A stretch of DNA of 64,000 bases from Synergistaceae bacterium DZ-S4 (GTDB lineage: Bacteria > Synergistota > Synergistia > Synergistales > Synergistaceae), in contig JAPCWD010000007.1 in the NCBI GenBank assembly GCA_025943965.1, positions 1-64,000 of the forward strand, written 5' to 3'. Made by a program: the position numbers and the translations under genes. Positions 32,725 through 38,036 of the stretch are shown here, piece by piece. Position 1 is the stretch's first letter. The number at the start of each line of letters is the position of its first letter. The notes under the pieces were generated by a model that ran no database searches, was not told the origin of the DNA, and saw only the letters and a list, made by a program, of their open reading frames with translations.

Positions 32725-32802
32725 CGGGGCGTAGCGCAGTCTGGTTAGCGCGCCTGGTTCGGGACCAGGAGGTCGGAAGTTCAAATCTTCTCGCCCCGAC
32801 CA
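32725..32802 (+). tRNA. tRNA-Pro (anticodon CGG)
   Basis: A 78-base cloverleaf with encoded CCA. The acceptor stem CGGGGCG (32725-32731) pairs with CGCCCCG (32792-32798), discriminator A at 32799. The anticodon stem CCTGG/CCAGG encloses the loop TTCGGGA, anticodon CGG. The T arm contains GTTCAAATC. It has its own promoter and terminator and so is a free-standing unit between tsaC and smpB. Confidence 0.96.
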
Positions 32803-33427: not shown

Positions 33428-33782
33428 GGGGACGTATGGTTTCGACAGCAGGTTGGAGGATCGGGAGGAGCGGGTCGAGGATGGGGAATCCTCGTTAATC
33501 CGGCTCCAAAACAATAATCGTCAATAACGATTACGCACTCGCTGCTTAAGTAAGCGGCGCGCTCTCTAAAGCTTCCGTCATCGGGCTTTAGAAGAGTGTC
33601 ACAAAGATGGCTGGGACATCTTCAGCGCTTTCTGGGAGAGGTTCGAGACTCTAGGGAAGGCTGGGAAATGCGGATCCTGTCTTTGGGAGCCGCAGATCCG
33701 AGATCAAATCAGAGACTACACTCGTAGTGCCTCCCAGATCGGCCCCTGTTGGACCGGAGTTCGAATCTCCGCGTCTCCACCA
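33428..33782 (+). ncRNA. ssrA: Transfer-messenger RNA (tmRNA)
   Basis: About 355 bases. The 5' end GGGGACG pairs with CGTCTCC at 33772-33778 to form the tRNA-like acceptor, ending in A plus encoded CCA; the T arm GGAGTTCGAATCTCC is clear. The tag frame is read as GTC at 33520 to TAA at 33547, giving V-N-N-D-Y-A-L-A-A after the charged alanine; the ALAA end is the standard degradation signal. The exact resume codon is inferred. TAATCGT (33515-33521) and ACGATTA (33527-33533) could pair across it. A bulged hairpin (33399-33420) lies between smpB and the RNA and may mark processing of a joint transcript. Confidence 0.95.
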
Positions 33783-36840: not shown

Positions 36841-36869
36841 TTGACTTTTTGACGCTGAGTCATTAGAAT
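36841..36869 (+). promoter_or_regulatory. Promoter of the metA leader
   Basis: TTGACT (36841-36846), exactly 17 bases, TAGAAT (36864-36869). The transcript would start near 36876, about 24 bases before the leader-peptide ATG and about 210 bases before metA. Confidence 0.8.
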
Positions 36870-36899
36870 TTCCGGAAACTTATCAAAGGAGGAAGCGCA

Positions 36900-36992
36900 A
36901 TGAATAAAAAAAGCGGCAATAACACGTTGATGTGCTGCATGATGATGCGCAGGAGTGCCTTTGGAGTTTATTACGGCAGTTCGCGGTCCTGA
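36900..36992 (+). CDS. Met/Cys-rich leader peptide upstream of metA
   Basis: A 30-codon ORF with a near-perfect ribosome site, AAAGGAGG (36885-36892), 7 bases before its ATG. Residues 11-16 are M-C-C-M-M-M, codons ATG TGC TGC ATG ATG ATG at 36930-36947. A consensus promoter lies just upstream, the ORF ends at TGA 36990-36992, and 28 bases later an intrinsic terminator stands before metA, the first enzyme of the methionine branch. This is the arrangement of trp/his-type leader peptides, where scarcity of the charged tRNA stalls the ribosome and lets transcription pass the terminator. GGAGTGCCTT (36952-36961) can pair with the left arm of the terminator (9 of 10 positions). A small metal-binding peptide is the main alternative reading. 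Confidence 0.7.
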   Translation: MNKKSGNNTLMCCMMMRRSAFGVYYGSSRS

Positions 36993-37020
36993 TTTGGCGC
37001 GAGATCCGATAAAAACTACT

Positions 37021-37056
37021 AAGGCAGTCCATTTAACGTATGGGCTGCCTTTTTTA
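37021..37056 (+). terminator. Intrinsic terminator (probable attenuator) in the metA leader
   Basis: AAGGCAGTCCAT (37021-37032) pairs with ATGGGCTGCCTT (37040-37051): 12 pairs with a single G-T wobble, a seven-base loop, then a T-run to 37056. It stands 33 bases before the metA ATG, with no other gene start between, so it must be passed to express metA. The left arm is also complementary to 36952-36961 in the leader ORF, which would form a competing antiterminator. Confidence 0.88.
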
Positions 37057-37088
37057 TTAGCATCAAATAACTGAAAGGGGGCATACAA

Positions 37089-38036
37089 ATGCCTATTAAG
37101 ATACCGGACAGTCTCCCTGCGACACAGACGCTTCTGAATGAAAATATTTTCGTTATGGATGAACTCCGTGCGGCCAAACAGGACATAAGGCCGCTTCAGG
37201 TAGCACTGCTCAATCTCATGCCTACCAAGATAGAAACGGAGACGCAGTTCGCGCGGCTGCTTGGCAACACCCCTCTCCAGGTGGAGCTCACGCTTCTGCA
37301 GACTGCGACTTATGAGGCAAAAAACACCAGTCGGGAGCATCTTCTCTCCTTTTATCAGACATTTGACCAGGTCTGCGGGAGGAAGTTTGACGGACTTGTC
37401 ATAACCGGAGCTCCGGTGGAACTGTTGGAATTTGAGGATGTCGAATACTGGGACGAACTGTGCAGGATAATGGAGTGGAGCAAGACCCATGTATACAGCA
37501 CCCTCCATATATGCTGGGGTGCACAGGCAGCACTCTACTACCACTATGGAATCAAAAAGTACCCGCTTCCCCAAAAACTATTCGGAGTCTTCCCTCATGA
37601 GGTGGAGTACAGGAATTCCATGCTCTTCAGGGGTTTTGACGACATTTTCATGGCTCCGCATTCACGCCATACAACGATCTGCAGGGAGGATGTCGAATCT
37701 GTGCCAGAACTGCAGATCCTTGCATCTTCGGAGGAGGCGGGGGTCTACGTCGTAAAGACAGAACAGGGGAAACAGATATTTATAACAGGGCATTCGGAAT
37801 ATGATGCAGGAACGCTTGAAAAGGAGTATCTGAGGGATAAAAACGCAGGACTGCCCATAGAGGTGCCTAAGAACTACTACCCTTGCGATGACGACACACG
37901 CAGGCCGGTCGTAAGCTGGAAGAGCAGCGCCAACCTTCTCTTTATGAACTGGCTCAACTACTTTGTATATCAGACCACTCCATTTGAGCTTGACGCCATT
38001 GGCACGGAAAGAGAAAGTGAATGGTTGAAGCAATAA
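37089..38036 (+). CDS. metA: Homoserine O-acyltransferase MetA (predicted O-acetyltransferase)
   Basis: First committed enzyme of methionine synthesis: moves an acyl group from acyl-CoA to the hydroxyl of homoserine. The protein has 315 residues, and numbering matches E. coli MetA without gaps at the key sites: Lys47, the nucleophile Cys142 (in [11 protein letters not shown]), His235 and Glu237 (in ITGHSEYD). Position 111 is Glu (GAPVELLEF). In the family Gly111 goes with succinyl-CoA and Glu111 with acetyl-CoA, so the likely product is O-acetylhomoserine. The ribosome site is AAAGGGGG. Expression is probably controlled by the leader peptide and terminator upstream. No other methionine-synthesis genes are in the window. 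Confidence 0.94.

Follow-up and report, generated by a model that had tools for sequence, protein, structure and literature searches.

Background

The trp, his, leu, thr, phe and ilv operons are the classical cases of control by leader-peptide attenuators, and bacterial methionine regulation is usually ascribed to SAM riboswitches, T-boxes and repressor proteins. The SAM-I riboswitch binds SAM and has no ORF. Like the classical attenuators, a leader located upstream of metA in a Synergistota genome carries a short ORF with codons for the product amino acid, and a predicted antiterminator excludes an intrinsic terminator. In contrast to them, it would sense methionine and cysteine, a single long antiterminator is predicted to enclose its stop codon in the apical loop, folds of unfinished transcripts gave no evident protecting hairpin, and it belongs to the phylum Synergistota.

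The clearest precedent is metL, a 29-residue methionine leader proposed in 2021 upstream of metNIQ in Streptomyces lividans (PMC8079986, available in part). Like the Synergistota leader, it ends in a Met/Cys-rich stretch (GARCMCRRMCAF), its final part containing two Met and three Cys codons. Unlike the Synergistota leader, it is read from a leaderless transcript, a typical terminator is missing according to its authors, and it was proposed for one strain. It also precedes a different gene in a different phylum, and the available part of PMC8079986 holds no comparative evidence. Cysteine leaders have been described in Actinobacteria, without obvious terminators (PMC1262725), and uORFC-8-2, upstream of cysS in Rhodobacterales, ends in a terminator (PMC8632094). 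Both precede cysteine genes and resemble the present leader in that the leader ORF carries Cys codons; they differ from it in that no methionine run is described in the available parts of these papers. Attenuation at the his leader is described in the part of PMC9413887 available to us, which contains no methionine leader, nor do the available parts of a premature-terminator study (PMC2965389) and a study of the Mycobacterium ilvB1 attenuator (PMC13236596). A survey of contiguous riboswitches (PMC12452182) does not use the words “leader peptide”. An earlier note on this DNA knew of no Met/Cys-codon attenuator described for metA; this stands in so far as metL does not serve metA, but a methionine leader had already been proposed, for metNIQ (PMC8079986, in its available part). 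The literature on methionine and related leader peptides thus yielded one clear precedent, metL, and as subscription papers were mostly uncovered by it, an earlier description may exist. What is added here is the anatomy of the leader, its covariation, a regulon in Synergistota, exchanged codon runs and tandems with SAM-I.

Features of the metA leader

The window (the whole stretch of DNA that was analysed, 64,000 nucleotides) contains the following features in and around positions 36,841 to 37,088.

36841..36869, + strand: sigma-70 type promoter TTGACT-17-TAGAAT (-35 at 36841-36846, -10 at 36864-36869, 17-nt spacer)
36888..36892, + strand: Shine-Dalgarno sequence GGAGG of the leader ORF, 7 nt 5' of the ATG
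36900..36992, + strand: leader ORF of 30 codons, peptide MNKKSGNNTLMCCMMMRRSAFGVYYGSSRS
36930..36947, + strand: putative regulatory Met/Cys codon run M-C-C-M-M-M (residues 11-16), the sole such run in the window
36952..37030, + strand: predicted antiterminator hairpin (from folding and covariation), with the leader stop codon (36990-36992) inside the apical loop
37021..37058, + strand: intrinsic terminator, a stem of 12 pairs (37021-37051) followed by the T-rich tail TTTTATTAGC, its left arm shared with the antiterminator
37089..38036, + strand: metA, homoserine O-acetyltransferase (NCBIfam), the putatively controlled gene

The promoter, ribosome site, 30-codon ORF with M-C-C-M-M-M, 12-pair terminator and metA that had been named beforehand were all confirmed in the sequence. 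The top NCBIfam model for the metA product was homoserine O-acetyltransferase MetA (494.2 bits against a cut-off of 460.5). Direct reading also bore out the pairing of GGAGTGCCTT (36952-36961) with the terminator left arm AAGGCAGTCC (37021-37030) at 9 of 10 positions. This 10-base pairing, proposed earlier as the antiterminator, is present, but the predicted antiterminator is longer, spanning 36952-37030 with the stop codon in its apical loop.

Only one of the 127,966 six-codon windows in the six frames of the 64-kb window consisted of Met/Cys codons at 6 of 6 positions, and none of 5000 dinucleotide shuffles of 36841-37088 produced a + strand ORF with such a run. Promoter-like sites (2 seen, 0.9 expected in 900 bases) and terminator-like sites (2 seen, 1.0 expected in 900 bases) are each weak evidence when taken alone. 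No Rfam family, neither a SAM riboswitch nor a T-box, matched 36841-37088 at the gathering threshold; the Rfam matches of the window were a tmRNA gene (33428-33782) and a tRNA (32725-32799) only.

Conservation upstream of metA and metY

Eight genomes of the genus were searched, and a metA match was obtained in six. The leader was intact before metA in five of these six, two of the five being one species; the sixth (G005) has no sequence upstream of metA. The genus leaders end 95-97 bases 5' of metA in the five genomes, and their four distinct peptides keep L-M-C-x-M-M-M-R and SAFGVY behind a variable N-terminus. In the family, metA was matched in 19 of 52 genomes. Two of these, from two other genera (G012, G045), carry metY followed by metA, with a Met/Cys leader and terminator 5' of metY (peptides MSTTTAKATDKMIMCVMMRAPAFAVRLGLPRL and MSAYCVKMMMCRLMCSSASLVDSGSMRP, respectively), while 11 of the 19 family metA loci had no Met/Cys leader within 330-450 bases upstream. 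Equivalents of the promoter were recognized by eye as TTGACA-17-TAAAAT (L085, L087), TTGACA-17-TATAAT (G012) and TTGACA-17-TATACT (G045), and the ribosome site GGAGGAAG was present in all six rows of the alignment of metA/metY leaders (A3). The comparison of metA upstream regions that the earlier note had called for thus came out in its favour: the Met/Cys codons and the terminator are shared within the genus and reappear ahead of further methionine genes.

A second match of the peptide profile in the same genome (G000:C3:22558-22626) was rejected by eye, its frame not being leader-like and no methionine gene adjoining it. Eighteen weak profile matches were scanned. Only L111, 5' of a MetQ-like gene in G048 (NCBIfam best match MetQ, below cut-off), was a leader; L106, L109, L112-L114, L116-L124, L127, L128 and L130 were not. 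L110 (the metY-metA locus of G012), also a weak profile match, was read separately from the 18.

The metY leader of this genus has apparently decayed (L319, at G000:C4:97300-99300, L322, L323, L324, L235). Its promoter remains; in G003/G004 the Met run lies outside the reading frame, and none was seen in G000, G001 and G002; the leader was broken or absent in all four sequences read.

Recurrence upstream of metQ, metN and metY

MetQ was matched in 94 of 149 Synergistota genomes, and the best 30 loci were taken. A Met/Cys leader was present at 21 of these best 30, and the scan returned none at the other 9; short MMC runs were seen in L154, L157 and L161. The genome of the window has its own metQ leader (L145, MLHNIVFGAMCMMIRGIGGSCPEMVGA) and a third leader 5' of a MetN-like gene (L233, MFKINIRTNNMMMCMYAQGSSPDLAGA). 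At MetY loci, a first scan yielded Met/Cys leaders in 3 of 30 and none in the remaining 27, and further metY cases were obtained with the RNA model R1 described below.

Met/Cys leaders (AITMMMCTTMYGDPSEGVGA) were also observed 5' of a protein of ~420 residues (L274, L275), which may be considered a methionine-gene candidate; the L274 protein had no Pfam match at E 1e-8.

Covariation

Covariation was assessed in alignments of the six metA/metY leaders (A3) and of 9 (A4) and 13 (A5) metQ-type leaders, with structures derived from the same alignments that were tested, which biases the slide controls. In A3, six pairs of the antiterminator changed on both sides, and none of 500 shuffles matched this number or the score; the pair types were at chance (153 of 500 shuffles). 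The A3 terminator was paired in 72 of 72 cells across the six sequences, with four pairs changed on both sides (reached by 8 of 500 shuffles) and a score reached by 0 of 500. Changes on both sides were found for six pairs (2 of 500 shuffles) and 14 cells (0 of 500) in A5, and covariation was modest in A4, where 17-31 of 500 shuffles reached the same level. Alifold on all 18 metQ-type leaders returned no structure (energy 0) because the alignment was bad in its 3' half, and the subsets A4 and A5 were used instead. The compensating antiterminator/terminator pairing that was anticipated from the window is seen as covariation in relatives.

RNA folding and the proposed mechanism

Twenty-one Synergistota leaders were folded as transcripts reaching up to, without, the terminator right arm, with a ribosome placed in the middle of the Met/Cys run. 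Absent from this set were L144 and L145 (terminator undetected, L145 being the own-genome metQ leader), L138 and L139 (GTG start), L159 (identical to L158), and L157 and L161 (start filter). The folded leaders are related to one another, hence the following counts do not represent 21 independent trials. A long hairpin that starts 1-11 nt 3' of the run and encloses the leader stop codon was predicted in 21 of 21. Of the terminator left arm, 0.62-0.92 was sequestered while the ribosome sat on the run (21 of 21 leaders), falling to 0.00-0.50 once it was placed at the stop codon (21 leaders). Antiterminator energies corresponded to z scores of -1.7 to -4.5 against 200 dinucleotide shuffles per leader. 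A stricter test required that the stop codon lie within the apical loop and that at least 0.6 of the left arm be sequestered; 19 of 21 leaders passed, as did 3 to 83 of 300 shuffles per leader, while L147 and L177 failed.

Stalling on individual codons was modelled for the window leader with the footprint edge assumed to lie 13 nt 3' of the first nucleotide in the A-site codon. Of the left arm, 0.75 was sequestered with the A site on M11, C12, C13 or M14, 0.50 with it on M15 and 0.33 with it on M16, the last value being also that for a ribosome at the stop. The weak point conceded at the outset, that a stalled ribosome would itself cover part of the antiterminator arm, consequently applies to M15 and M16 but not to M11-M14. 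One fold of the window leader, in which the U-tract pairs with the leader start, was set aside given that the sequence it uses is not kept in relatives.

In transcripts with the complete terminator, most ribosome positions on the Met/Cys codons left the terminator as the favoured equilibrium structure in 17 of 21 leaders (0.79-0.93 for the four metA leaders), and therefore read-through must rest on kinetics. Kinetic switching is the usual view of attenuators.

Judged from sequence, the leader is very probably a ribosome-mediated transcription attenuator that reads the charge of elongator tRNA-Met and, probably, also of tRNA-Cys. The reading given in the earlier note is in this respect supported by conservation, by recurrence before methionine genes and by covariation. 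In the course of events that we infer, from transcript start and translation through stalling and read-through to the identity of the signal, RNA polymerase would start near 36876 and a ribosome would start the leader at 36900. If Met-tRNA or Cys-tRNA were short, the ribosome would pause at the first codons of the run (36930-36947) for which charged tRNA is lacking, and the RNA past its leading edge would fold as the antiterminator (36952-37030), holding the terminator left arm, so that polymerase would read on into metA. If both tRNAs were plentiful, the ribosome would advance into the apical loop as far as the stop codon at 36990 and open the antiterminator, whereupon the terminator (37021-37051) would form and transcription would stop.

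A sensor of general ribosome supply or initiation, in which any translation block induces metA and the Met/Cys codons merely sharpen the response, is very unlikely. It would gain from the untranslated, unfinished transcripts: with the right arm still to be made, 0.54-1.00 of the left arm was sequestered in 19 of 21 leaders (0.29 in L140, 0.07 in L149). At equilibrium, however, untranslated leaders with the complete terminator folded as the terminator in 19 of 21, and a general sensor fits poorly with the agreement between codon run and target pathway given in the next section.

Codon runs and target genes

A covariance model (R1) was built from 13 metQ-type Met/Cys leaders only and searched in 149 Synergistota genomes. 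At E ≤ 0.5, it matched in at least 84 of the 149. Among the matches listed, 90 regions were read, representing 89 places (L215 and L280 being the same), and downstream genes were assigned by similarity to reference proteins for 72 of the 90. The codon run fitted the target pathway in 64 of these 72 assigned matches: among the matches listed, 41 of 46 methionine targets had a Met/Cys run, 19 of 21 branched-chain targets had a Leu/Ile/Val run (no ORF found for two) and 4 of 5 PaaK-like ligase targets had a Phe/Tyr run (no ORF found for one). The other 18 regions among the matches listed comprised 7 with Met/Cys, 7 with Leu/Ile/Val and 2 with Phe/Tyr runs, and 2 without a run. Because 13 of the 46 methionine rows were R1 training sites (two more, L205 and L212, are near-duplicates of these), weight is placed on the non-training rows, mainly the branched-chain and aromatic leaders. 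Five methionine rows were not called Met/Cys (L247, L221, L228, L222 and L235). Met runs are present from another start in L247 and L221, L228 is the L177 leader, and the run of L235 is in another frame with no start or ribosome site visible. The leuA, panB and dehydratase target classes are represented by one locus each. MetA, MetY, LeuA, IlvN and PanB exceeded the curated NCBIfam cut-offs; MetQ, MetN, PaaK, threonine dehydratase and a cystathionine-type enzyme were best matches below cut-off.

In the genome of the window itself, the ORF VRIDSLIRDITSLVLVLVLLISSGSPEVADA, which has a similar C-terminus and is accompanied by a terminator, precedes an ilvN-like gene and contains the run LVLVLVLLI (R1 21.1 bits, E 0.09). 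The metA leader of the window is a diverged type, scoring only 14.7 bits with this metQ-type model.

A metabolite riboswitch, for SAM or another ligand and with the ORF incidental, is highly improbable. SAM-I (RF00162) was matched in 96 of 149 Synergistota genomes and, like the Met/Cys leader, precedes metY- and metQ-like genes in other members of the phylum, and the leader RNA folds better than shuffles, as a riboswitch might; the metA leader, however, has no RF00162 match (elsewhere, SAM-I stands in tandem with the Met/Cys leader) and no Rfam match at all at the gathering threshold, and a ligand-binding RNA would not explain a codon run that changes with the target pathway among Met/Cys, Leu/Ile/Val and Phe/Tyr. 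It is scarcely credible that the ORF encodes a functional small protein (e.g., a thiol- or metal-binding peptide) with the terminator only tuning metA, for although C-terminal residues are kept, as SAFGVY..GSSR in leaders of the metA type and as a GSSPxxxGA-like motif in those of the metQ type, this stretch doubles as an antiterminator RNA strand with covarying pairs, and the Met/Cys part is swapped for Leu/Ile/Val or Phe/Tyr before other genes.

Several further leaders on this scaffold were observed. Phe/Tyr-codon leaders (CFFEYYY, FGFVYFY) are located 5' of PaaK-like phenylacetate-CoA ligases (L237, L245, L259, L288), which would apparently put a ligase gene under an attenuator for aromatic amino acids. 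A leader with an Ile/Leu run precedes an SNF-type symporter (L258), and two others precede further proteins (L251, L265); in these three, the run of codons may give a clue to the substrate of the downstream protein.

SAM-I riboswitches and leaders in other phyla

In G113 and G081 (L280, L243), SAM-I and a terminator-like hairpin are followed by a Met/Cys leader with its own terminator-like hairpin and then by metQ. Coordinates suggest the same tandem in G083, G085, G093 and G098. Two features are considered surprising: across the phylum the codon runs differ while the RNA scaffold stays similar, and leaders stand in tandem with SAM-I.

Beyond the attenuator proposed for metA, we tentatively suggest that Synergistota possess one homologous, modular attenuator in which a common RNA cassette is combined with exchangeable codon cassettes, the methionine version being on by default and SAM-I acting as a gate in series. 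The RNA cassette would consist of the antiterminator, whose sequence encodes GSSPxxxGA and whose apical loop contains the stop codon, followed by the terminator. The Met/Cys cassette would serve metQ, metN, metY and, in diverged form, metA; a Leu/Ile/Val cassette would serve ilvN and the single leuA and panB cases, and a Phe/Tyr cassette the paaK-like genes. The methionine version has to cope with the fact that methionine starvation starves initiation too; it may do so by having no protecting hairpin, which would let an untranslated leader read through by default. This part of the proposal is weakened by the equilibrium folds, in which 19 of 21 complete leaders adopted the terminator when untranslated. 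In several lineages, the attenuator in series with SAM-I could form a two-input gate for SAM and charged tRNA.

A phylum-recurrent Met/Cys leader that responds to tRNA charge and can stand in series with SAM-I would be a separate input to methionine regulation. As a lack of methionine impairs translation initiation too, the question arises how a sensor built on methionine codons can work. Codon runs are seen to be exchanged on a similar scaffold even within one genome, and this exchange would amount to a natural experiment in how attenuators switch specificity.

The genome of the window has two SAM-I matches above cut-off and one below (L320, G000:C26; L321, G000:C14); downstream lie one ankyrin-repeat protein and two others that matched nothing in Pfam at E 1e-5. 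RF00162 was not matched in G001, a genome of the same species, or elsewhere in the genus, of which the 149-genome sample includes five genomes besides this one; these matches are possibly contamination or a mobile island.

Outside Synergistota, Met/Cys-rich short ORFs were found 5' of metA in Chloroflexota and Clostridia (L036, L045, L047, L051, L053, L063). The start filter removed L045, and the Synergistota architecture was not seen in the other five, which are not counted as members: the leader stop codon is not enclosed by a hairpin in L036, L051, L053 and L063, and in L047 it is enclosed with a z score of -0.5; L006 lies, by eye, inside an upstream coding sequence. Among 150 genomes of the family of L047 (Oscillospiraceae), six had an R1 match at E ≤ 0.05 (best 28.9 bits). 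In one Chloroflexota family, a Met/Cys-rich ORF was present at 6 of 30 metA loci, and 3 of the 6 peptides resemble those of L051, L053 and L063. In these last three, the Met/Cys-rich ORF and a terminator are followed by SAM-I (Rfam match) and then metA; at a further Chloroflexota locus (L315), such an ORF lies upstream of a SAM-I-like core pattern only, before metA. An example from this group of four is MTKRLEVTRMMVMCMMCRSEEL. At L045, upstream of metA, GGCGGCAGC follows an MMMAMVMC run and can pair, by eye, with the terminator left arm GCTGCCGCC, an arrangement similar to that of the window.
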